DNA from: Streptomyces zhaozhouensis
Lineage (GTDB): Bacteria > Actinomycetota > Actinomycetes > Streptomycetales > Streptomycetaceae
NCBI RefSeq assembly: GCF_900230195.1
Contig: NZ_OCNE01000005.1
Location: forward strand, 124,001 to 188,000
Reading direction: 5' to 3'
DNA: 64,000 bases
The translations under genes were made by a program, and so were the position numbers. Under the pieces are notes generated by a model that saw nothing but the letters and a program-made list of their open reading frames with translations, was not told the DNA's origin and ran no database searches. Numbering within the stretch: the first letter of the stretch is position 1; every line of letters begins with the position of its first letter. Of this stretch, positions 28,444 to 40,849 are shown piece by piece.

Positions 28444-29700
28444 CTACGCGGCGCGGCCGTGGGCGACGCGGGAGCGGCGGGCCACGGAGTCGAGGGTGAC
28501 GGCGAGGGCCAGGACGAGGCCGGTGATGATGAACCGGAAGGAGGAGTCCAGGTCAAGCAGCGTCAGGCCGTTGGAGATCGACTGGATCACCAGGATGCCG
28601 AGCAGCGCGGAAAACGCGCTGCCCCGGCCGCCGAAGAGGCTGGTGCCGCCGATGACGGCGGCGGCGATGGCGTTGAGGTTGACGTCGCCGGCGCCGGTGG
28701 CCTGGTTGGCGGCGGCGAGGCGGGCCGCCGCGATCATGCCGCCGAGGGCGGCCAGCGTCGAGCACAGCACGAAGACCGAGGTGTAGACCCGGCGCACGTT
28801 GATGCCCGCGCGCCGTGCGGCCTCCGCGTTGCCACCGACGGCAAAGACCGAGCGCCCCCAGCCGGTCCGCGTCAGCGCGTAGTGCAGCAGCAGGACCAGC
28901 ACCACGAAGCTGACGAAGAGCCAGCCCACGCCCCGCGCCCGGTTGAGGTACCAGACGGCGAAGCCGAGGCCGAGCAGCACGGCGGCGCTGCGGGCCACCA
29001 GCAGGGAGGTGGAACGGGCCGAGAGGCCGGCGGCGCGGCGGGTCCTGGCCAGGCCGTAGCCGGTGGCGAAGAGCCAGCCGGCGGCCACGACCACCAGCAC
29101 ATAGGACAACCACTCGGGCAGGAAGGCGAGTTGGGCGAAGTGCACCAGGTCGGACTCGAACGGCAGGTTGATCGCCCCGGTGTCGCCGAGCAGCCACAAC
29201 TGGATGCCGAGGAAGCTGAGCAGGCCGGCGAGGGTGGCGACGAAGCTGGGCACGCCGAGCCTGGTCACCATCTGCGCGTAGACCACGCCGATCAGCGCGC
29301 CCGCGCCGAGCGCCGCGGCCATGGACAGCGGCAGCGGCCAGCCGTGGCTGACGAAGGTGACGGCGGTCAGCGCGGCGGAGAGCCCGCTGACGGAGCCGAC
29401 CGACAGGTCGATCTGCCCGACGAGCAGCACGCAGACCACGCCGAGCGCGATGATGCCGACGGAGGCGGACTCCATCAGCAGGTTGACCAGGTTGGCGCTG
29501 GAGAGGAAGACGGAGTTCAGCGACTGGAAGACCGTCCAGATCACGACCAGCCCCAGGACGATCGGCAGCACGCCGAGGTCACCGGAGCGTACGCGTCGCC
29601 ACAGCCCGCCGGCCACGGACCTCCACCCGTCGCCGCGCCGCAGTCGTTCGTCGAGCAGGTCGAGCGGGGCCGCCGTCTCGGCCGCCTTGACGTCGGCCAT
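28444..29700 (-). CDS. Xylose/ribose-type ABC importer permease
   Basis: A 418-residue permease of the RbsC/XylH/AraH family with about ten to twelve membrane segments. Diagnostic parts are GVLPIVLGLVVIWTVFQSLNSVFLS, NLLMESASVGIIALGVVCVLLVGQIDLSVGSV, and GRSVFAVGGNAEAARRAGINVRRVYTSVFV with IGGTSLFGGRGS. Its length exceeds the ~320 residues of RbsC because of extra helices in the middle, as in XylH. It is last in the importer operon; its ATG follows the stop of the ATPase gene with a 1-nt overlap. Confidence 0.92.
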   Translation of the reverse strand: MADVKAAETAAPLDLLDERLRRGDGWRSVAGGLWRRVRSGDLGVLPIVLGLVVIWTVFQSLNSVFLSSANLVNLLMESASVGIIALGVVCVLLVGQIDLSVGSVSGLSAALTAVTFVSHGWPLPLSMAAALGAGALIGVVYAQMVTRLGVPSFVATLAGLLSFLGIQLWLLGDTGAINLPFESDLVHFAQLAFLPEWLSYVLVVVAAGWLFATGYGLARTRRAAGLSARSTSLLVARSAAVLLGLGFAVWYLNRARGVGWLFVSFVVLVLLLHYALTRTGWGRSVFAVGGNAEAARRAGINVRRVYTSVFVLCSTLAALGGMIAAARLAAANQATGAGDVNLNAIAAAVIGGTSLFGGRGSAFSALLGILVIQSISNGLTLLDLDSSFRFIITGLVLALAVTLDSVARRSRVAHGRAA

Positions 29701-30512
29701 CAGGCTTCCCCCTTCACGGAACGGGCGCGCCCCGCGCGGCGGGAGACCACGTTGTCGCTGGCGCCGATCATCGCGGCGACGATCTCCTCGCTGGGCGCCT
29801 CGGCGGCGAAGACGCCGTTGTTGCGGCCGAGGCGCAGCACCACGACGCGGTCGGCGACGGCCCGGACGTCCTCCATGTTGTGACTGATCATGATCACGCC
29901 GAGCCCGCGTTCCCTGAGGCGTTCGATCAGGTTCAGCACCTCGGCGGTCTGGGCCACCCCCAAAGCGGCCGTCGGTTCGTCGAGAACGATCACCCGGGGG
30001 TCGCCCAGCAGCGTGCGGGCGATGGCGACCGTCTGGCGCTGGCCGCCGGAGAGGGAGGCGACGGGCACCCGGACGGTGGGGATCTTCGCCGACAGCTGGC
30101 GCAGCAGCTCCCAGGACCTGATCTCCATCGTGACCTCGTCCAGCCGGGCACGGCGCAACTCGCGGCCGAGGAAGAGGTTCTGGATCACGTTCAGGTTCTC
30201 GCACAGCGCCAGGTCCTGGAAGACGGTGGCGATGCCGAGGGCGTGCGCGTCGGCCGGGCTGGCGACGGTCACCTCGCGGTCGGCGAAGGTGAGGGTCCCC
30301 GCGTCCGGGCGGTGGACGCCGGCGAGGACCTTGACCAGGGTGGACTTGCCGGCGCCGTTGTCGCCGACGACCGCCACCACCTCGCCGGGTGAGACGTCGA
30401 GGTCGACGTCGGTGAGCGCGGCGACGGCGCCGAAGTTCTTGCTGATGCCGCGCAGCGACAGGATGGGCCGCCCGCCCGGGGCCGCGGCCGGCTCCTTGAC
30501 CGGGTCGTTCAT
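29700..30512 (-). CDS. Sugar ABC importer ATP-binding protein (single NBD)
   Basis: A 270-residue ATPase. Walker A VVGDNGAGKSTLVKVLAG, Q-loop VFQDLALCENLNV, signature SLSGGQRQTVAIAR, Walker B VIVLDEPTAALG and switch histidine MISHNMEDV are intact. Sugar ABC ATPases of the RbsA type have two NBDs; this protein has one, as is common for actinobacterial xylose-type systems, so it must act as a homodimer. It lies between the lipoprotein and permease genes with a 1-nt gap and a 1-nt overlap. Confidence 0.93.
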   Translation of the reverse strand: MNDPVKEPAAAPGGRPILSLRGISKNFGAVAALTDVDLDVSPGEVVAVVGDNGAGKSTLVKVLAGVHRPDAGTLTFADREVTVASPADAHALGIATVFQDLALCENLNVIQNLFLGRELRRARLDEVTMEIRSWELLRQLSAKIPTVRVPVASLSGGQRQTVAIARTLLGDPRVIVLDEPTAALGVAQTAEVLNLIERLRERGLGVIMISHNMEDVRAVADRVVVLRLGRNNGVFAAEAPSEEIVAAMIGASDNVVSRRAGRARSVKGEA

Positions 30513-30513
30513 C

Positions 30514-31590
30514 TCACTGCTCCCACTCGATGCCGGCCTCGGCGCAGGCGTCGGCGTACTCGGGGGTGCAGACGTCGGCCGCGTCGACCTGGTCGGACTC
30601 GGCCAGGACCTCGGGGAGGTTGTCCAGGGTGACGACGGTCGGCTCGAAGAGCTGGGCGGGGGTGTCGAAGAGTTCGAGCTCCCCCTCGGGGGTCTCGCCC
30701 TGGGCGAAACGGTAGGAGACCTCGGCGGCGGCCTCCGCGACGATCTTGATGGGCTTGGAGATGGTGTTGTACTGCTGTCCCGCGACGATGCGTTGGGCCG
30801 CCGCCACCTCGAAGTCGTTGCCGGTGACCGGCGGGATCGGGACGCCGGCGGCCTGGAACGCGGCGATCGCGCCGCCCCCGGTGCCGTCGTTGGCGGCGAC
30901 GACGCCGGCGATGTCGTCCTCGAAGCGGTTGATCTGGCCGGCGACCCAGTCCTGCGCGTCGGACGGCTGCCAGCCCGGGGTGTCGAACTCGGCGAGCAGC
31001 TCGTAGCCGCTGTCGTCGACCGCGTTGTGGATGCCCTGCTTGATCAGCCCGGCGGCCGCGTCCGTGGGCGAGCCGTTGACCTGGAGGATGCCGCCCTCGG
31101 CGCCGGTCTCGTCGAGATGGTCGACGAGGGACTGCCCGATGGACTCGCCGATCGCCTCGTTGTCGAAGGATATGTAGTAGTCGGCCGGGGTGCTGGATAT
31201 CGGCCGGTCGTAGGCGATGACCGGGACGCCCTGGGAACGGGAGGCGTTGACGACGCTGGCGGCGGCGTCGGAGTCGACCGGGTCGATGACCAGCACGTCC
31301 GCGCCCTGCGCCAGCGCGGAGTTGGCCTGCTCCTGCTGGCGGGAGGCGTCGGCGTTGGCGTTCTGGTAGATGACCGAGCAGTCCGCGCACAGCTCCTTGA
31401 TCCGCGCCTCGAAGAGCGGGGCGTCCCACAGCTCGTAGCGCGGCGAGGCGATGTCCGGCATGAGGAAGGCGATGGTGGCGCTGTCCCCGCCGCCGCCGTC
31501 GTCGTTGGTCTCCTCCTCCGAGGCGCAGGCGGACGCCGAGGCGGCGGCGAAGGCGAGGGTCAGGGCGAGTGCGAGGGTGCGTCGGCTCAC
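30514..31590 (-). CDS. Xylose/ribose-type ABC substrate-binding lipoprotein
   Basis: A 358-residue periplasmic-binding-protein-1 family lipoprotein. The signal peptide ends in the lipobox SASACAS (lipidated cysteine about residue 22), followed by an acidic Gly-rich linker. The binding fold shows IAFLMPDIASPRYELWD, NANADASRQQEQANSALAQGADVLVIDPVD, VPVIAYDRPISS and VVAANDGTGGGAIAAF. PDIASPRYELWD resembles XylF-type proteins, so a pentose is likely. An additional C-terminal part holds a Cys pair (DVCTPEYADACAE). Confidence 0.92.
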   Translation of the reverse strand: MSRRTLALALTLAFAAASASACASEEETNDDGGGGDSATIAFLMPDIASPRYELWDAPLFEARIKELCADCSVIYQNANADASRQQEQANSALAQGADVLVIDPVDSDAAASVVNASRSQGVPVIAYDRPISSTPADYYISFDNEAIGESIGQSLVDHLDETGAEGGILQVNGSPTDAAAGLIKQGIHNAVDDSGYELLAEFDTPGWQPSDAQDWVAGQINRFEDDIAGVVAANDGTGGGAIAAFQAAGVPIPPVTGNDFEVAAAQRIVAGQQYNTISKPIKIVAEAAAEVSYRFAQGETPEGELELFDTPAQLFEPTVVTLDNLPEVLAESDQVDAADVCTPEYADACAEAGIEWEQ

Positions 31591-31611
31591 GGTGCGTTCC
31601 CTTCGGGCGGG

Positions 31612-32238
31612 TCAGGCTTGCAGGGGGTGGTTCAGCGAGAGCAGGGCGGCCGGGTGGGCGGGGTCGTCGGGCAGCCGGATCTCGGTCACCGCGACGTTCT
31701 CGACCCGGGGGAAGAGCCGCCGGTAGTGGGTGTGGGGCAGTCCCAGCAGCGCGCACAGTCCCAGGCGGAGCGCCGTGCTGTGTGCGACGACCAGCACGGT
31801 GCGCCCGGGGAAGCGCGCGCCGATCGCGCGGAGCGCGGCGCTCACCCGGGCGGCGACCTCGTCCGGCGGTTCGGCGCCGGGGAACGGGTGGGCGGCCGGG
31901 TCGGCGACGAACCGGCGCACCGTCTCGGGGTCGGCCTCGGCCCTGGTGCGTCCCTCCAGTTCGCCGAAGTCGGCCTCGCGCAGGCCCGGTTCACGCAGCA
32001 GTTCGACGCCGAGCGCCTCGGCGGCCGGGGTCGCGGTGCGCACGGCGCGGCCCAGCGGCGAGCTGACGACGGTGTCGACGCCGGCGGCGACGGCACCGCG
32101 CGCGAGTGCCGCGACCTGGCGCAGGCCGTTGTCGGTCAGGTCGGGGTCGGTGCGGGCGCCGGCGTAGCGGTTCTCGGCGTGCCAGACGGTCTCGGCGTGC
32201 CGGGCGAGCAGCAGCCGCGCGGGCGTCGGGGTGCTCAT
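31612..32238 (-). CDS. Histidine phosphatase (phosphoglycerate-mutase-like)
   Basis: A 208-residue histidine phosphatase. LLLARHAETVW carries the phospho-accepting histidine, VVSSPLGRAVRTATPAAEAL the arginine, LREADFGELEGRTRAE the substrate glutamate region, and VLVVAHSTALRLGL the second catalytic histidine. Members dephosphorylate sugar or alcohol phosphates. It overlaps the dehydrogenase stop as ATGA and precedes the ABC importer genes, so it is part of the catabolic operon. It may relieve sugar-phosphate build-up or take part in the pathway itself. Confidence 0.9.
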   Translation of the reverse strand: MSTPTPARLLLARHAETVWHAENRYAGARTDPDLTDNGLRQVAALARGAVAAGVDTVVSSPLGRAVRTATPAAEALGVELLREPGLREADFGELEGRTRAEADPETVRRFVADPAAHPFPGAEPPDEVAARVSAALRAIGARFPGRTVLVVAHSTALRLGLCALLGLPHTHYRRLFPRVENVAVTEIRLPDDPAHPAALLSLNHPLQA

Positions 32239-33308
32239 CGGGCCTCCAGGACCTCGGGGTTGGCGCAGTGCAGCGGCGCGTCGCCGCGCAGCCAGCGGCC
32301 GGCCTCGGCGGCGACCATGGTGGCGGCGCGACGGGCGGTGGCGCGGCTCGCGCCGGCGAGATGGGGGCTGAGGACCGCGTTGGGCGCCGAGCGCAGCGGG
32401 TGGTCGGCGGCCAGCGGCTCCTCGTCGAAGACGTCGAGCCCCGCGGCGAAGAGGTGTCCGTCGGCCAGCGCGGCGGTCAGCGCCTCGTAGTCGAGGAGGC
32501 CGCCGCGCGCGCAGTTGACCAGCACGGAACCGCGCGGCATGGCCGCCAGCGCGGCGGCGTCGATCAACCCGGCGGTCTCCTCGGTCAGTCGGGCGTGCAG
32601 GGAGACGACGGAGGAGGAGGCCAGCAGCTCCGGCAGCGAGACCAGGCGGGCGCCGGGCGGCAGCGCGGCCGGGTCGGTGTAGGGGTCGGCCACCAGCACC
32701 TCGGCGCCGAGCGCGTGCAGCGCCCTGGCGACACGCGCGCCGACCGCGCCGCAGCCGACCAGGCCGACGACCGAGCCCGCGATCTCCAGGCCGGTGGCGT
32801 CGTAGGCGTAGAAGCCGCTGTCCCAGCGCCCGGCCCGCATACTGTCCTGGGCGTGCGGCACCCGGCGCATCGCGGCCAGCATCAGGGCGAGGGTGTGCTC
32901 GGCGGTGGACTCGGCGTTGCGGCCGGGGGCGAACGTGACGCGCACCCCGTGGGCGGTGGCGGCGGCGAGGTCGGCGTTGACGGGGCCGCCCCGGGAGACG
33001 GCGAACAGCTCCAGCTCGGGACAGGCGGCCAGGACCCGTGCGGTCAGCGGCGCCATCTGGGTGAGGCAGACCCGCGCGCCGGCCAGCGCCTCGATCATCG
33101 CCTCCTCGCTCCCCGACGCCTCGTCGACCTCCGCGACGGGCCCGAACGGCACGTGCGGCCAGGGGAGTTCGAGTGTGCGCGCGTCCCAGGACGAGGGGCC
33201 GCTCTGGGCGTGCAGGGCTTCGAGGAGCAGGCTGTTGAGCACGAAGTCGTCGCCGGCGAGCAGGACGGGGACCGGTCGGCCTGCGGCCTCGTCGCGGGGG
33301 TGGCTCAC
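32235..33308 (-). CDS. SerA-like D-2-hydroxyacid dehydrogenase
   Basis: A 357-residue NAD-dependent 2-hydroxyacid dehydrogenase. NAESTAEHTLALMLAAMRR, VVGLVGCGAVGARVARAL (NAD loop), LPELLASSSVVSLHARLTEET, AMPRGSVLVNCARGGLLDYEAL (catalytic Arg), AGLDVFDEEPL (Glu) and LSPHLAGAS (catalytic His) are all intact. Two FGGY kinases are upstream, so the substrate may be a phosphorylated or free sugar acid, not phosphoserine precursor. GTG 33308 has AAAGGA 6 nt upstream. ATG 33365 overlaps the kinase stop as TGATG with a GAGGAA 8 nt before it and would add 19 Pro/Lys-rich residues, so either start is possible. Confidence 0.88.
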   Translation of the reverse strand: MSHPRDEAAGRPVPVLLAGDDFVLNSLLLEALHAQSGPSSWDARTLELPWPHVPFGPVAEVDEASGSEEAMIEALAGARVCLTQMAPLTARVLAACPELELFAVSRGGPVNADLAAATAHGVRVTFAPGRNAESTAEHTLALMLAAMRRVPHAQDSMRAGRWDSGFYAYDATGLEIAGSVVGLVGCGAVGARVARALHALGAEVLVADPYTDPAALPPGARLVSLPELLASSSVVSLHARLTEETAGLIDAAALAAMPRGSVLVNCARGGLLDYEALTAALADGHLFAAGLDVFDEEPLAADHPLRSAPNAVLSPHLAGASRATARRAATMVAAEAGRWLRGDAPLHCANPEVLEAR

Positions 33309-33364
33309 GGTGGGTCCTTTTCCTTTCGGCCCGTCGGGGGGCCCGGCGGGTGGGGCGGTCGGCA

Positions 33365-34840
33365 TCAGGGGCGTTCCTCGGCGAGGCGGGGGTCGAGCCA
33401 GCCGCGTTCCGCGAGCGCCTCCAGGAAGGCGCGGTAGCCGGGGAGCAGGGACGCGGTGCGGGCGGGGTCGGGGGTGAGCGTGCGGCGGACGCGGACCAGG
33501 CGGCGGGCGGCGGCCCGCAGGTCGCCGCCGACGGAGCCGGCGGCCAGCACGGCCATGCCCAGGGCCGGTTCCGGGGTCTCGGGCAGTCGGACGGGGAGGC
33601 CGAGCATGTCGCAGCGGAGCTGGTTCCACCAGTCGTTGCGCGCGGCCCCTCCGGTGAGGGCGACGGGCCCGTCGACGGCGCAGCCGGCGGCGGCCAGCAG
33701 CGCGAAGGAGAGCCGTTCGACGTGGGCGACGCCGGTGAGGACGGCGGCGAACGCGGTTTCGGGGTCGTCGCCCACGGCCAGCGGACCCTCCCCCAGAAAG
33801 CCCTCGGCGTCGGGGGCGACGAACGGGAACCGCTCGCCGCGCCCGACCAGCGGATAGCAGACCGGCACGGTCTCGACGCGGGCGGCGGAGGCCGTCAGCT
33901 CGGCGAGCGCCGGCTGGTCGGCGTCGGGGAAGAGGTGGCGCACGGCGGCGGCGCCGGTGGAGGAGGCGCCGCCGGGCAGCCACAGGTCACCGTGCGGGGC
34001 GCGGTGGGAGTAGACGGCTCCGGTGGGGTCGGCGGGCAGCCGGGCCTGGACGCCCTTGAGCGCGAGGGTGGTGCCCAGCACGGCGTTCCACTGGCCGATC
34101 TCCAGGGCGCCGGCGGAGAGTTGGGCGGCGCAGGCGTCCGTCATGCCGGCGACCACGGGGGTTCCGGCGGGGAGGCCGGTGGCGCGGGCGGCGGCGGGGG
34201 CGATGGTGCCGAGCACGGTGCCCGGCCGGACGACGTCGGGCAGCACGGCGGGGTCGACGCGCAGTCGGCGCAGCACCTCCTCCGGCCAGCGCAGGGCGAG
34301 CAGGTCGTAGCCGGTCTTGAGGGCGTGGCTGGTGTCGCTGGCGACGGGGTGGCCGACGAGGGCGGCGGCGACGACGTCGGGCTGGTGGGCCAGGCGCGCG
34401 CCGCCGTCGAGCAGCCCGAGGTCGCGCCACCACAGCAGCTTGGGCAGCGCCCAGGCGGGCTGCATCCGGTAGCCGAGGGCGGTCCACAGGTCGGCGCCGG
34501 CCTCCTGGGCGGTGGCGGCGAGCGCGGCGGCGCGGGTGTCGTCGTACATCACGCCGGGGGTGCGCGGGGTGCCGTCGGGGTCGGTGAGGAGCACGGTGCC
34601 GGAGGTGGCGCAGACGGCGAGCGCGCCGACGGGGCGGCCGGCCAGCGCCTCGGCGACCTCGGCCAGTGCCTCGGTGGCCAGCCGCCGCCAGTCCGCCGGG
34701 TCCTGCTCGTGCCGGACACCGTCCCGGTGGCTGGTCAACGGGCGTGCGGCGACCGCGAGTTGGCGCCCCGCCTCGTCGACGGCCAGGGCCCGGACGCTCT
34801 GGGTGCCGACGTCGACGCCGATCCAGACGGGCTCAGCCAT
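33365..34840 (-). CDS. FGGY-family carbohydrate kinase (xylulokinase-like)
   Basis: A 491-residue kinase with the two FGGY halves. WIGVDVGTQSVRALAVD is the N-terminal phosphate loop, GALAVCATSGTVLLTD and PGVMYDDTRAA are the sugar-side motifs, GMTDACAAQLSAG contains the catalytic Asp region, and VALTGGAARNDWWNQLRCDMLGLPV is the C-terminal ATP motif. The family phosphorylates xylulose, ribulose, erythritol and similar. The start overlaps the second kinase gene by 8 nt. Two different FGGY kinases in one operon suggest two substrates or two steps. Confidence 0.9.
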   Translation of the reverse strand: MAEPVWIGVDVGTQSVRALAVDEAGRQLAVAARPLTSHRDGVRHEQDPADWRRLATEALAEVAEALAGRPVGALAVCATSGTVLLTDPDGTPRTPGVMYDDTRAAALAATAQEAGADLWTALGYRMQPAWALPKLLWWRDLGLLDGGARLAHQPDVVAAALVGHPVASDTSHALKTGYDLLALRWPEEVLRRLRVDPAVLPDVVRPGTVLGTIAPAAARATGLPAGTPVVAGMTDACAAQLSAGALEIGQWNAVLGTTLALKGVQARLPADPTGAVYSHRAPHGDLWLPGGASSTGAAAVRHLFPDADQPALAELTASAARVETVPVCYPLVGRGERFPFVAPDAEGFLGEGPLAVGDDPETAFAAVLTGVAHVERLSFALLAAAGCAVDGPVALTGGAARNDWWNQLRCDMLGLPVRLPETPEPALGMAVLAAGSVGGDLRAAARRLVRVRRTLTPDPARTASLLPGYRAFLEALAERGWLDPRLAEERP

Positions 34841-36329
34841 GGTCCCGCCACTCCGCCCAGCGGGTCGCCGCGAGCGCTCTGGTGGCGAGGAACTCGGCGT
34901 GTTCCGCGTCGTGGAACCCCCGGACGCCCGTGTCCGGCGCGTAGCGGGCGCTCGGCCGGACGAGGGCACGGGCGGCGGTGGTCAGGTCGGGGTGGTCGCC
35001 GAGCGCGGTGGCGGCGAAGAGCAGGGCGCCCTTGGCTCCGACCTGGGTGTCCTCGGTGCGGACGGCCGGCACCCCGGTGATGTCGGCGATCAGTTGGCAC
35101 CACAGGTCGCTGGCGGCGCCGCCGCCGCACAGGCCCAGCTCGACCGGGCGTCCCGGCGCGGCGTCCAGGCAGTCCCTGATGACGTGGGCGAGCCCCTCCA
35201 GCACGGCCCTGGCCAGGTGTTCCCGGCCGTGGGAGAGGAGCGCGCCGGTGACCAGACCGCTGGCCGCCGGGTCGAGGAACGGGGCGCGCTCCCCCGCCGG
35301 GGAGAGGTAGGGCAGCACGCGGAGCCCCTCGGCGCCGGGGGCGGCGCGCGCGGCCAGCGCGGTCAGCTCGGCGTGGTCGCGCAGGCCGAGCAGCGCGACG
35401 AGCCAGTCGAGGACGCCGGTGCCGGCGAGCGTGGGGAAGGCCCGCATCAGGCGGCCCGGGGCGCCGAAGTCGAGGGTGAGGCCGGCGGGTCGGGCCTCGG
35501 TATCGGGCGCCTCGACCAGCATCTCGGTGCACAGCGTGGTGCCCAGCACGCAGGTCGCCCGGCCGGGCTCCGTGGTGCCGACGCCGAGGGCGGTGGAGAC
35601 GATGTCGTAGGGGGCGAGGACGACGGGGGTGGTGGGCGGCAGGCCCAGCGCCTCGGCGGCCCCGCCGGTCAGCTCGGCGATCTGCCGTTCCCCGGTGAGC
35701 AACGGGGGCAGCAGCCGGCGGTGCGCGGTCAGCCCGTAGGTCTCCAGCAGGGTGTCGGTGTAGGCGCCCGCGCGGATGTCGAGCCAGGGGGCCGACGCCT
35801 CGGACGGCTCCAGGCCGAGGACGCCGGTCAGCCGCAGGAAGAGCCAGCTGCCGCAGGTGAGCACGGAGTGCGCGGCGGCCAGCGTCTCGGGCTCCTCGTC
35901 GGCGAGGTGGCGCAGCACGGCGTTGGGCAGCCCGGCGTTGGTGAGCGAGGCGTTCACCCGGAAGGCGCGTTCCAGCACGCCGTCCTCGGCCCAGCGGCGG
36001 ACGACGTCGGCGGCGCGGCCGTCGTTCCACAGCACGGCGGGGCGGACCGGGCGGTGGTCGGGGCCGACCAGCCAGGCGCCGTCGCCCTGGGCCGTCAGCG
36101 CGAGAAACCGCACGGGCCGGCCGGCGCGGGTGACGGCCTCCCGCACGGTGGCGACGACCGCGTCCCAGACCTCGTCCATGTCCTGCTCGGCGCGGTTCCT
36201 GGCGGGGTGGTGAACGGCGGTGTCGCGCCGGGTCACCACGCGTTCCCTTCCCTCGGCGTCGAAGACCACCGCCTTGATCACGGTGGTGCCGGCGTCCACA
36301 CACACAGCGACCGGTCCGTCCGATGTCAC
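34833..36329 (-). CDS. Second FGGY-family carbohydrate kinase
   Basis: A 498-residue FGGY kinase clearly distinct from its neighbour. AVCVDAGTTVIKAVVFD is the phosphate loop, FLALTAQGDGAWLVGPDHRPVRPAVLWNDGR the sugar site, APYDIVSTALGVG the catalytic-Asp segment, and VELGLCGGGAASDLWCQLIADITGVPA the C-terminal ATP motif. GTG 36329 was chosen, with GGAAGGGG upstream; ATG 36353 is an alternative. It is the first gene of the catabolic operon, and its leader holds one copy of the ATGACTTA motif. The substrate is unknown. Confidence 0.88.
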   Translation of the reverse strand: MTSDGPVAVCVDAGTTVIKAVVFDAEGRERVVTRRDTAVHHPARNRAEQDMDEVWDAVVATVREAVTRAGRPVRFLALTAQGDGAWLVGPDHRPVRPAVLWNDGRAADVVRRWAEDGVLERAFRVNASLTNAGLPNAVLRHLADEEPETLAAAHSVLTCGSWLFLRLTGVLGLEPSEASAPWLDIRAGAYTDTLLETYGLTAHRRLLPPLLTGERQIAELTGGAAEALGLPPTTPVVLAPYDIVSTALGVGTTEPGRATCVLGTTLCTEMLVEAPDTEARPAGLTLDFGAPGRLMRAFPTLAGTGVLDWLVALLGLRDHAELTALAARAAPGAEGLRVLPYLSPAGERAPFLDPAASGLVTGALLSHGREHLARAVLEGLAHVIRDCLDAAPGRPVELGLCGGGAASDLWCQLIADITGVPAVRTEDTQVGAKGALLFAATALGDHPDLTTAARALVRPSARYAPDTGVRGFHDAEHAEFLATRALAATRWAEWRDHG

Positions 36330-36517
36330 CGTCCGGTGCCCCTTCCTGGTCATCGTCCTGGCCGAGCCCGAAGTGAGGCGTATTACAGGCAGGACCTCCG
36401 GTATTTCGCAACTTTTCACATCGATCTTGATGACACGTCACCACCGGGATGGTGAACGTCCAGGTGGGACGGCATGGTGGGAGATCTACCCCGATGGGCC
36501 AACCCCATTAACTTCAC

Positions 36518-36532
36518 ATGACTTAGCAGTGA
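36518..36532. promoter_or_regulatory. ATGACTTA-type motif, copy A (kinase operon)
   Basis: ATGACTTAGCAGTGA lies 189 bp upstream of the first kinase start. Similar sequences occur at 37428 and 38471. It is a candidate operator for the adjacent DeoR regulator. Confidence 0.55.
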
Positions 36533-36551
36533 CGGGTCTCGTGGCGGGGAG

Positions 36552-37355
36552 TCAGCCGCGCACCACGTCGACGCGGGCACCGCGCGCCCGCAGCCCCCGG
36601 ACCGTCAGCTCGGGCGTGCCGTCGTCGACGACGACGCGGTCCAGGTCGGCTATGCCCACCAGCCGGTGCTGGGCGCGGCGCTCGAACTTGGTGTGGTCGA
36701 TCATCGCGACCGTCCGCGCCGCCGAGGCGATCAGCGCCCGGCGGGTGATCATCGTGCCCAGCGACTGGAGGTAGCAGAAGCCGTCGGCGACCGCCGTGGT
36801 GGACAGGAAGAGCACGTCGGGCCGCAGCTCCGACGCGGCCTCGGCCGTGGCCCGCCCCAGGAACGAGTCGTAGGAGGCGTCGTAGCGCCCGCCCAGGCCG
36901 ATCAGCTCGATGCCGGGCTGGGCGGCCAACGCCCGCACCACCGGCAGGAAGTGGGTGACCACGGTCAGCGGCGCCCGTTCCGGGAGGAGCCTGGCCAGCA
37001 CCAGCGAGGTGGTGGAGTCGTCGAGGGCGACGACCTGCCCGGACTCGACCTCGCTCGCCAACACCTCGCGCGCTATCGCCGACTTGGCCTCGACCTGGGC
37101 CTGCATCCGGTGCTCCAGGTCGCCGTGGAAGGTGGTGGTGGGCGCGCTGGTGGCCCCGCCGCGCACCTTGTGGAGGAACCCGCGCCGCTCCAGCTCGTCC
37201 AGGTCGCGGTGGACGGTCATGATGCTGACGGCGAACTCCCTGGCCAACGCGTCCACCCGGACGAACCCGGCCTCCGCCACCCGCCGCCGCATCGCCACCC
37301 GGCGCAGCTCGGGGTTGCGGCGGGCACCCTCGGCGGCGAAGGGATCGTTGACCAC
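36552..37355 (-). CDS. DeoR-family transcriptional repressor
   Basis: A 267-residue DeoR regulator. The winged helix is at about residues 25-80 (MRRRVAEAGFVRVDALAREFAVSIMTVHRDLDELERRGFLHKVRGGA). The DeoRC sugar-phosphate sensor shows VVALDDSTTSLVLARLL, VVTHFLPVVRAL, LIGLGGRYDASYDSFLG and MIDHTKFERRAQHRLV. DeoR repressors usually release DNA when they bind a phosphorylated sugar, which fits the kinase operon next door. GTG 37355 was preferred over ATG 37424 because the 23 codons between them use many A/T third bases, unlike the gene. Confidence 0.9.
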   Translation of the reverse strand: MVNDPFAAEGARRNPELRRVAMRRRVAEAGFVRVDALAREFAVSIMTVHRDLDELERRGFLHKVRGGATSAPTTTFHGDLEHRMQAQVEAKSAIAREVLASEVESGQVVALDDSTTSLVLARLLPERAPLTVVTHFLPVVRALAAQPGIELIGLGGRYDASYDSFLGRATAEAASELRPDVLFLSTTAVADGFCYLQSLGTMITRRALIASAARTVAMIDHTKFERRAQHRLVGIADLDRVVVDDGTPELTVRGLRARGARVDVVRG

Positions 37356-37427
37356 CTCACCAGCATCGCACGCGGGCCGGAACGCACCGGCCGCCACCAG
37401 CCGTTGAACACCAAGGGTGACCATTCC

Positions 37428-37440
37428 ATGACTTACAGTG
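37428..37440. promoter_or_regulatory. ATGACTTA-type motif, copy B (DeoR/oxidoreductase gap)
   Basis: ATGACTTACAGTG lies in the divergent gap between the DeoR repressor and the quinone-oxidoreductase-like gene. A dyad CGTCCG (37454-37459) / CGGACG (37468-37473) lies beside it. Confidence 0.55.
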
Positions 37441-37490
37441 TTCGGCATGGTGTCGTCCGGCACCGTTCGGACGGATTGTGAGGGGGCGTC

Positions 37491-38435
37491 ATGCGCGCGG
37501 TTGTGATGGAGAGGTTCGGGGGCCCCGAGGTGCTGCGGGTGGTCCGCGTCCCCGAGCCCCGCCCCGGCCCGGAGGAGCTGCTGGTCGACGTCGTCCGCGC
37601 GGGGGTGAACTGGACGGACGTGCACGCCCGCACCAACTCCTCCTGGGCGCCCGTGGAGTTGCCGCACGTGCCCGGGGCGGAGGTGGTCGGCAGGACCGCC
37701 GAGGGGCGCCGGGTCGTCGGGCTCACCCTGGCCGGCGGCTACGCGGAACGGGCGGTGGTCGACCGGCGGATGGCCTGGGAGGTGCCGGAGGACATCGGGG
37801 ACGACGAGGCGATGCCGCTGCCGCTCCAGGGCCAGGCGGCCTGGCACCTCCTCTTCACGGTGGCCCGGATCCGCCCGGGACAGCGGGTGTTGGTGCCGGC
37901 GGCGGCCGGCGCGCTGGGGTCGATGGCGGTACAGCTCGCGGCCGAGGCCGGCGCCCGGGTCATCGCGCTGGGCAGCACGGAGGAGCGGCGCCAACTGGCG
38001 CTGGCCCTGGGGGCGGAGGTCGCGGTGGACTCGGCGCCCGAGGGCCTGGCCGAGCGGGTCCGCGACGCGGCGGGCGGCCCGGTCGACGTGGCGCTGGAGA
38101 TGACGGGCGGCCCGGTGCTGCACGAGACCATCGCCGCCCTGGCGCCGCGCGGCCGGCTGGTGATCTACGGCTGCGTGGGCGGTGCGCCGACGGACCTGCC
38201 GACGCGGGCGCTGATGGACCGTTCGGTCACGGTCTCCACGTTCTGGCTTCCGCACCTGCGGGAAGCCGGCGCGGCGCTGCCCACCAGCATGGCCGCGCTC
38301 TACGACGCGGTCCGGCGGGGCACCCTGCGCCCGATGAACGGCGGCGTCTACCCGCTGGGCGAGGCGCCGGCCGCGCACCGGGCGCTGACGGCCCGCACCC
38401 ACCTGGGCAAGTTGGCGCTCGACCCGTCGCGGTGA
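37491..38435 (+). CDS. Zinc-independent quinone-oxidoreductase-like MDR protein
   Basis: A 314-residue medium-chain dehydrogenase/reductase of the quinone oxidoreductase branch. MRAVVMERFGGPEVLRVVRVPEP and AGVNWTDVHART are the N-terminal domain. RVLVPAAAGALGSMAVQLAAEAGARVIALGSTEERR is the NADPH-binding Rossmann core (AAxGxxG). VDVALEMTGGPVLHETIAAL and GRLVIYGCVGG follow. No zinc ligands are seen. It is divergent from the DeoR repressor and shares its control region, so it may be part of the same regulon. The substrate is unknown. Confidence 0.9.
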   Translation: MRAVVMERFGGPEVLRVVRVPEPRPGPEELLVDVVRAGVNWTDVHARTNSSWAPVELPHVPGAEVVGRTAEGRRVVGLTLAGGYAERAVVDRRMAWEVPEDIGDDEAMPLPLQGQAAWHLLFTVARIRPGQRVLVPAAAGALGSMAVQLAAEAGARVIALGSTEERRQLALALGAEVAVDSAPEGLAERVRDAAGGPVDVALEMTGGPVLHETIAALAPRGRLVIYGCVGGAPTDLPTRALMDRSVTVSTFWLPHLREAGAALPTSMAALYDAVRRGTLRPMNGGVYPLGEAPAAHRALTARTHLGKLALDPSR

Positions 38436-38470
38436 CGCGCGACCCCTGTGGAGGGGACGCGAGTTGGGCT

Positions 38471-38484
38471 ATGACTTACCGGTG
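38471..38484. promoter_or_regulatory. ATGACTTA-type motif, copy C (GH43)
   Basis: ATGACTTACCGGTG lies 31 bp upstream of the GH43 start, between it and the preceding stop. It suggests the secreted glycosidase is coregulated with the pentose import and kinase operon. Confidence 0.55.
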
Positions 38485-38514
38485 TAGACCATTTTCCAGC
38501 CGAAGGGTCCGCCC

Positions 38515-39852
38515 ATGCGTCACCGGAGACTCGCGTGCGTGGGGGTGGTGGCGGCGCTCGGCGCGCTGCTGTCGGCCTCCCCCGCCGTCGGGACCTCGAC
38601 CACCGCGCCCGAGGAGGGGGTTTCGACCGCCGCCGTCGCCCCACGCCTCGCCATCGACGACGACTTCCCCGACCCCGACGTCATCGAGGTCGGCGACACC
38701 TACCACGCCTACTCGACCAGTTCGCGTCACGGCCGGGTGCCGCACGCGACCGCCCCCGGGCCCGACGGGCCGTGGACGATACGGGGCGACGTGCTGCCGG
38801 AGAAGCCCGCGTGGGCCGGGTCCGGCGGCTTCTGGGCGCCGGACGTCTCCCCACGGGCCGACGGCCGCTACCTGATGTACTTCACCGGCCCCGACACCGC
38901 CTCGGGGCGGATGTGCCTGGGCGCCGCGCTCGCCGACGGCCCCGAGGGACCGTTCACCGCGACCTCCGACCGCCCGCTGGTGTGCGACGCGGGTGAGGGC
39001 GGCGACATCGACCCGTCGAGCTTCGTCGACGAGGACGGCACCCGCTACCTGCTCTACAAGAACGACGGCAACGCGATCGGCCAGCCGACCGTCATCTGGC
39101 TCCAGCGCGTCGAGGCCGACGGCCTCACCCTCGTCGGCCCCCGCACCGAGCTGCTGCGCAACAACCTCCCCTCCGAGGACGGGGTGATCGAGGCGCCGGT
39201 GCTGGTCAAACGCGCCTCGCAGTACGTGCTGTTCTACTCGGCCGGCGTCTACTCCACCCCCAACTACCAGACCAGCTACGCCGTCTCGTCCTCCCTCACC
39301 GGCCCCTACACCCGCGCCTACCGCCCGCTGATGACCACGGGCAGCCTGGACGGCGCGGTCTCGGGCCCCGGCGGCGCGGACATCGGGGACGGCCGGATCT
39401 TCTTCCACGGCGCCCTCCCGGCAGGCGGGCGCGGTCTGTACGTGGCCGACCTGGGCTGGGACAACGACTACCCGGTGGTGCGCGGCAGCCGCGTCCGCCA
39501 CGAGGCGGAGCGCGGGACGCTGAGCAACGCCAGCGTGCGCGAGGCGCCCGGCGCCTCCCAGGGCGCGGTCGCCGCCGGCATCGACCACGCCGACAGCGCG
39601 GTCGACATCCGCGTCTTCGCCGCGAGCGCCGGCACCCACACCCTGCACATCGGCTACGCCGCCGGCTACGGCGAGGCCCAGCACGCCCTGTCGGTCAACG
39701 GCGTCTCGGCCGGCGCGGTGACCTACCCGGACCGGGGCTGGGAGAACTGGACGGAGGTCGCCGTCGACGTCGAGCTGAACGCCGGCGCCAACACGGTGCG
39801 CCTGGGACACCTCAGCCGCTGGGCCGAGTTGGACTACGTCGAGGTCTCCTAG
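38515..39852 (+). CDS. Secreted GH43 glycosidase with C-terminal CBM-like domain
   Basis: A 445-residue exported enzyme. A signal peptide (to about residue 26) is followed by a five-blade GH43 propeller with all three catalytic carboxylates in context: DDDFPDPDVIEVGDTYHAY (base, D53), GEGGDIDPSSFVDEDG (pKa modulator, D166) and DGVIEAPVL (acid, E226). From about residue 328 a beta-sandwich like CBM6/CBM35 follows (RHEAERGTLSNASVREAPGAS, HTLHIGYAAGYGEAQHALSVNG, LGHLSRWAELDYVEV). GH43 enzymes release arabinose or xylose from plant polysaccharides, which fits the nearby pentose-type importer. Confidence 0.9.
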   Translation: MRHRRLACVGVVAALGALLSASPAVGTSTTAPEEGVSTAAVAPRLAIDDDFPDPDVIEVGDTYHAYSTSSRHGRVPHATAPGPDGPWTIRGDVLPEKPAWAGSGGFWAPDVSPRADGRYLMYFTGPDTASGRMCLGAALADGPEGPFTATSDRPLVCDAGEGGDIDPSSFVDEDGTRYLLYKNDGNAIGQPTVIWLQRVEADGLTLVGPRTELLRNNLPSEDGVIEAPVLVKRASQYVLFYSAGVYSTPNYQTSYAVSSSLTGPYTRAYRPLMTTGSLDGAVSGPGGADIGDGRIFFHGALPAGGRGLYVADLGWDNDYPVVRGSRVRHEAERGTLSNASVREAPGASQGAVAAGIDHADSAVDIRVFAASAGTHTLHIGYAAGYGEAQHALSVNGVSAGAVTYPDRGWENWTEVAVDVELNAGANTVRLGHLSRWAELDYVEVS

Positions 39853-40818: not shown

Positions 40819-40849
40819 AACTGCGATCAGTGTTCGCAGTTTCTAGGGT
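40819..40849 (+). promoter_or_regulatory. TetR operator and overlapping promoter
   Basis: AACTGCGA (40819-40826) and TCGCAGTT (40834-40841) are 8-bp arms around 7 nt. TAGGGT (40844-40849) fits a -10 element for the TetR gene, with a weak -35 at 40821-40826 at 17-nt spacing. Initiation would fall at or next to ATG 40855, so the transcript may be leaderless. Confidence 0.65.

Follow-up and report, generated by a model that had tools for sequence, protein, structure and literature searches.

Candidate DeoR-type tandem operators upstream of a kinase/ABC operon in Streptomyces zhaozhouensis

Introduction

In the 64,000 nucleotides of the Streptomyces zhaozhouensis genome analysed here (the window, to which all coordinates refer), the 8-mer ATGACTTA occurs upstream of a set of minus strand kinase and ABC transporter genes, in the gap between a DeoR-family regulator gene and an oxidoreductase gene, and upstream of a GH43 glycoside hydrolase gene. 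Is this 8-mer the operator of the DeoR protein, and does it place all of these genes under one regulator, the secreted GH43 included, as the first-pass annotation of the sequence had proposed? None of the titles and abstract openings listed by a literature search deals with this regulator or operon in Streptomyces. The comparisons described below point to a different element at the same locus, a pair of tandem direct repeats in the leader of the kinase genes, and only one of these repeats contains the 8-mer. The pair offers a concrete and testable target for the DeoR protein and the kinase/ABC operon, and a route to the inducing sugar.

Genes of the locus

The DeoR-family gene (36552..37355, minus strand) sits upstream of the minus strand kinase/ABC genes. 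Its product carries the Pfam domains HTH_DeoR (PF08220, E 1.2e-11) and DeoRC (PF00455, E 9.4e-36), both over the gathering score. As a named NCBIfam equivalog (AgaR, GlpR, UlaR and others) it stays below the curated cut-off, the best match being AgaR with 114.9 bits against the 260 needed. The first gene of the operon encodes FGGY kinase 1 (34833..36329, minus strand; Pfam FGGY_N and FGGY_C). Its start is read here as the GTG at 36329, and the searches took 36350. The rest of the operon (28444..34840, minus strand) comprises a second FGGY kinase, a 2-hydroxyacid dehydrogenase, a histidine phosphatase, a XylF-like sugar-binding protein, an ABC ATPase and a permease. From the gene order and the small gaps we infer that the kinase/ABC genes form a single operon. 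The ABC ATPase (29700-30512) has 270 amino acids and a single ABC domain, and its best-matching importer ATPase models, YtfR, XylG and RbsA, are about 500 positions long.

Two genes are found on the plus strand beyond the DeoR gene. A zinc-type or quinone oxidoreductase-like gene (37491..38435; Pfam ADH_zinc_N) has PIG3 as its best NCBIfam match, under the cut-off, and is followed by a gene for a GH43-CBM35 protein (38515..39852; Pfam Glyco_hydro_43 and CBM_35). Elsewhere in the genome there is a second GH43 of about 50% identity, and the match crosses one TGA in both L119 (G000:C16) and L120 (G683:C17). Among the NCBIfam matches listed for the island proteins (25 of 190 for the ATPase), none reaches its curated cut-off, and calling the island "pentose-type" is for this reason a guess.

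The 8-mer and its rarity

The three copies of ATGACTTA reported earlier are indeed there, on the plus strand at 36518, 37428 and 38471, with no others on either strand of the window, and all three lie between genes. A genome-wide search, named beforehand as a check, gave five copies in 6,532,426 bases, three of them being those of the window; the surroundings of the other two (L001, L005) are unlike the three sites and these copies were set aside. The extension C.GTG, said to follow each copy, is present, but its distance floats by one base, and the fixed form ATGACTTANNNGTG is exact at sites 1 and 3 only.

By the measures of the whole window the cluster is unusual. The mean count of the 8-mer over 100 dinucleotide shuffles of the window was 0.02, and it is the sole 8-mer of the window with at least five A/T and exactly three copies, all inside 2 kb; a comparable 8-mer arose in one of 200 whole-window shuffles. 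Nevertheless, the improbability of the trio had been overstated, since the three gaps (36351-36551, 37356-37490 and 38436-38514) have 58, 64 and 65% G+C, respectively, compared with 74.7% for the window. Of 5000 trials in which each gap, with boundaries of our own choosing, was shuffled separately, 34 (0.68%) gave an 8-mer common to all three; for any two of the gaps, a shared 8-mer turned up in 31-63% of the trials. The estimate of rarity from overall G+C was consequently dropped. The three-gap coincidence is unusual, not astronomically so.

Two conserved tandem repeats in the kinase leader

The window was compared with seven orthologous loci: S. sedi (L006), NBRC 109706 (L007), S. triticirhizae (L008), MP131-18 (L009), SBT349 (L010), S. 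harbinensis (L011) and L044 (G311). Three further entries, L013, L042 and L043, are the same records as L011, L006 and L008, and were excluded from the eight-locus comparisons. Across the eight kinase leaders conserved islands stand amid drifting sequence, and two of these are 20-bp tandem direct repeats with a 10-bp period, here named site 1 and site B.

Site 1 (36509..36528, minus strand), the candidate upstream DeoR operator, contains the first copy of the 8-mer (36518-36525, plus strand). It reads TGCTAAGTCA-TGTGAAGTTA in the window, S. sedi and S. triticirhizae, TGCGAAGTCA-TGTGAAGTCA in NBRC 109706, TGCGACGTCA-TGTGAAGTTC in MP131-18, TGCGATGTCA-TGTGAAGTTC in SBT349, TGCGATGTGA-TGTGAAGTTC in S. 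harbinensis and CGTCAAGGCG-TGTGAAGTTC in L044. What is conserved at this site is not the 8-mer as such, which is intact in three of the eight loci and altered in five, while the adjoining TGTGAAGT is invariant in all of them. The claim that ATGACTTA itself is the DeoR operator is thus not supported, although the suspicion of an operator at this position gains from the tandem form and from the conserved leader sequence in which the copy is embedded. A striking shared 8-mer can lead to the right locus and yet to the wrong element.

Site B (36401..36420, minus strand), the candidate promoter-proximal DeoR operator, was absent from the first-pass annotation. It reads TGTGAAAAGT-TGCGAAATAC in the window and follows the pattern TGT(G/T)AA(A/G)(A/T)GTTGCGAA in all eight leaders. 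A probable -35 box of the kinase operon, TTGCGA (36406..36411, minus strand), falls inside site B, and a probable -10 box, TGTAAT (36382..36387, minus strand), lies 18 bp from it; both are proposed from the conserved alignment, in which they are 17-18 bp apart. The sequence TGTAATACGC is present in every leader, 32-33 nt after the start of site B. A strict scan of 36200-38700 gave no sigma-70-like promoter or terminator-like site, and no RNA element of Rfam was matched in that region at E up to 1.

When 13 sites of both kinds were aligned (site 1 of L044 and both S. sedi sites being omitted), nine of 20 columns were invariant, the pattern being TGnnA recurring after 10 bp. Both sites have the form that the relevant passages of PMC3870299 give for DeoR-family operators, two imperfect direct repeats with a 10-11 bp period. 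The candidate operators are conserved beside the orthologous regulator genes in 8/8 loci, most weakly in L044. These sequence comparisons lend good support to a conserved tandem pair in the leader of the kinase/ABC operon.

Spacing of the two sites

The start-to-start distance between sites 1 and B is 108 in the window, S. sedi, NBRC 109706 and S. harbinensis, 107 in MP131-18, 106 in SBT349 and L044, and 119 in S. triticirhizae. Seven of the eight loci thus fall within 106-108 bp, and the eighth is longer by 11 bp, roughly a helical turn. The flanking distances are less regular: between the DeoR stop and site 1 they span -15 to 40, and between the -10 box and a fixed codon of the kinase, 72 to 118. 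The spacing fits two operators that would touch via a small loop, an argument that depends on one insertion and on a set of loci in which the window and S. sedi are close relatives. With a spacing that stays constant except in one locus, where it grows by a whole turn, these leaders amount to a small natural experiment on operator looping.

Profile and model scans

A profile of site 1 trained on five other species (L007, L009, L010, L011 and L044) placed site 1 of the window first of 127,958 placements, with 32.4 bits against 12.2 for the runner-up. In the same scan site 2 (the copy at 37428) ranked fifth (10.5), site B ninth (9.5) and site 3 (the copy at 38471) 304th. A model of paired half-sites from six other loci, with S. 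sedi omitted from training and the S. triticirhizae site 1 in training identical to that of the window, gave sites 1 and B the two top ranks among 255,922 placements, in that order (32.8 and 29.3; next 12.0). No tandem direct repeat of this kind was found at sites 2 and 3, which ranked 276 and 155 in that model. With a profile of sites 1 and B from six loci, again including the S. triticirhizae copy of the window's site 1, they ranked 44 and 501, and as single half-sites 605 and 85 of 127,982.

A calibrated model, R1, which leaves out the same three sites as the 13-site alignment, recovered every expected site of the eight loci except site 1 of L044 (15 of 16), and no others at E up to 10. Over the whole genome it matched two places only, site 1 (E 0.157) and site B (E 0.17). 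Both are members of the training set (in-sample) with weak E-values, and the scoring covered 150 of 319 first-look candidates, so the scan is informative for the lack of other sites. A loose search of the genome gave 13 matches to AAGTCATGTGAAGTT with up to 3 mismatches and 9 to CACTGNTAAGTCAT with up to 2; these were rejected. Two of them whose frames were examined, L070 (bioA-like by reading) and L083, lie within long open frames, and among the matches that were given loci for comparison none outside C35 had the island DeoR or kinase genes.

The site 1-like pattern was matched in 32 of 296 genomes. Among the 30 loci kept from this search only L104, which is the same locus in an S. sedi genome, has the island DeoR and kinase genes nearby. 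At about position 1500 of four other loci (L098, L101, L106 and L109), from four Streptomyces genomes, TGTGACGTGATGTGATGT or a one-base variant stands in a common conserved context unrelated to the island proteins; this is perhaps an operator of another regulator.

The copies upstream of the oxidoreductase and GH43 genes

Site 2 (37428..37435, plus strand), in the DeoR/oxidoreductase gap, is found in S. sedi and S. triticirhizae and not in L007, L009, L010 or L011, four orthologous loci that lack ATGACTTA altogether; in NBRC 109706 an oxidoreductase (66%) occupies the equivalent place. In S. triticirhizae 8/8 bases of site 2 are kept in a gap otherwise 72% identical (P = 0.08). Site 3 (38471..38478, plus strand), upstream of GH43, is ATGACTGGA in S. 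triticirhizae, where 7/8 columns are retained in the pairwise alignment, a gap being allowed (P = 0.32). The same pairwise test of the site 1 octamer gave P = 0.12, and the case for site 1 accordingly rests on the eight-locus comparison. GH43 is present at the locus in the window, S. sedi and S. triticirhizae. The close orthologues in the eight genomes searched are these three and one in SBT349 (81%), there on another contig and with neither ATGACT nor a site 3-like sequence upstream.

What, then, do sites 2 and 3 represent? One possibility, to be taken seriously even if we do not expect it to hold, is that they share ATGACT as -10-like elements of the plus strand genes and that the match at site 1 is a coincidence. 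The boxes would be TTGAAC-17-CATGAC at site 2 and TGTGGA-17-TATGAC at site 3. Both 17-bp spacings, read off the alignments, hold in the window, S. sedi and S. triticirhizae, and the last of these retains ATGACT, not ATGACTTA, at site 3; moreover, the copy at site 1 is oriented opposite to its gene. The hexamers, however, match the consensus poorly, the strict scan returned no promoter, and an 8-mer common to all three gaps would arise by chance in only 0.68% of gap-wise shuffles.

The original proposal, that ATGACTTA is the DeoR operator and that its three copies unite the kinases, the importer, DeoR, the oxidoreductase and the secreted GH43 in one regulon, appears unlikely. It draws on the concentration of three of the five genomic copies within 2 kb and the same shuffling result, on the preservation of site 2 in S. 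triticirhizae and its fifth rank with the site 1 profile, and on the rank of site 3 as a half-site. Against this, the 8-mer is altered at site 1 in most loci, sites 2 and 3 fit neither the tandem model nor the combined profile, site 3 has a different sequence in S. triticirhizae, and the pairwise conservation of both is not significant. A single regulon that includes the secreted GH43 is not established. The DeoR protein may bind site 2 weakly; for site 3 operator function is not supported by these comparisons, and it is probably not a DeoR operator.

DeoR relatives and the identity of the binding protein

The S. sedi DeoR protein is 97% identical to that of the window. Of 52 loci that are more distant, 40 have a homologue of a kinase, the binding protein, the dehydrogenase or the phosphatase within about 1.5 kb of the DeoR gene. 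The closest DeoR relatives outside the orthologous loci (17 loci, about 50% identity) frequently have a TCACGTGAACTTAACA-type sequence in an 11-bp repeat, close to the TCATGTGAAGTTAAT of site 1, an example being GCGAACCTCAC-GTGAACTTAAC in L063. Sequences with at most two mismatches to TCAYGTGAASTTAA were found in nine of these 17 loci and in none of 13 scanned loci of other DeoR groups, a comparison that is partly circular in that the consensus was written after both groups had been read. At three mismatches the counts are 12/17 and 5/13, so this level discriminates poorly, and in five of the nearest relatives a site 1-like sequence is missing even then.

The recognition helix MTxHRDL is identical in the window, the orthologues and the nearest relatives (L062 was not aligned). 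Since the HRDL helix is shared by seven of the 13 other-group loci (L014, L018, L019, L020, L030, L036 and L040), none of which matches at up to two mismatches, the helix alone fails to predict the site. In L058 (1471-1495) and L059 (2262-2286), where the DeoR relative sits beside a kinase gene, a second 11-bp tandem repeat, TCACGTGAACA-TCACGTCGACT, is found at the opposite end of deoR, some 0.9 kb away from the first. Another DeoR group (L045-L053 and L056) has an MTIRRDL helix and is divergent from a binding-protein gene of 62-67% identity; TTCTGTGAAGTGAACA occurs upstream of deoR in most of the printed gaps of these loci.

The form of the repeat with its 10-11 bp period, together with the similar sequences beside related DeoR genes, points to DeoR as the binder of the candidate sites, and the kinase/ABC operon is likely under DeoR control. 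That sites 1 and B are instead operators of a regulator other than the neighbouring DeoR seems improbable: there is no clear conserved tandem site upstream of the DeoR gene itself and direct repeats are also used by some global Streptomyces regulators (PhoP), but the model sites are found nowhere else in the genome among the candidates scored, unlike those of a global regulator, and the repeat form and the related loci favour DeoR.

A model of control and its relation to known systems

Taken as a whole, the reading that we consider probable is that sites 1 and B are a conserved DeoR-type tandem operator pair through which the kinase/ABC operon would be repressed with the help of looping. Site 1 would be one of two operators, with a half-site of approximately TGYGAAGTNA. 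Site B would cover the probable -35 box, and site 1, starting 108 bp upstream, would lie on about the same helix face. The neighbouring DeoR-family protein is predicted to bind both sites. At site B it could block RNA polymerase, aided by contact with site 1 via a small loop, and it would presumably be released by a pathway sugar or sugar phosphate.

Parts of this model have counterparts in described systems. According to the relevant passages of PMC3870299, the motifs of the DeoR-family regulator RhaR are two imperfect direct repeats with a 10-11 bp periodicity. RhaR resembles the present case in being a DeoR-family protein that locally regulates a sugar operon and in having a direct-repeat motif of this period, but it is described there in other taxonomic groups, with another sequence and other sugar genes; the RhaR of Actinomycetales is of the LacI type in the same source. 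The E. coli DeoR protein loops DNA (as outlined in PMC8053113) and resembles the present case in family and in having several operators (O1, O2 and OE), which are approximately 300-600 bp apart in that outline compared with 106-119 bp here, where looping is a prediction. In Caldicellulosiruptor bescii, sites of the DeoR family overlap promoters or 5' UTRs, which is read as repression in the corresponding section of PMC8579813. AxgR of that organism also has a tandem-repeat site beside a sugar ABC operon, but it belongs to a different phylum, with a different sequence and locus as presented there, and in that source it is called AraC-family in one place and DeoR in another. The DeoR/kinase/ABC operator pair is an ordinary kind of system, a new example of it with a neat spacing feature.

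A wider version of the model, in which a local DeoR repressor with a short-range, helically phased operator pair is being extended in a small Streptomyces clade, the oxidoreductase and GH43 genes having arrived next to it and their promoters having gained site 1-like half-sites, seems doubtful. If true, it would mean that a regulon has been caught in the act of growing, with a secreted enzyme being added to uptake and catabolism.

One further element of the window came up in the scans. At 40819-40841, between an alpha/beta-hydrolase-like gene (minus strand) and a TetR-like gene (plus strand), there is a perfect inverted repeat, AACTGCGA-7-TCGCAGTT. It was the top background scorer of the half-site pair model and is likely an operator of the adjoining TetR.
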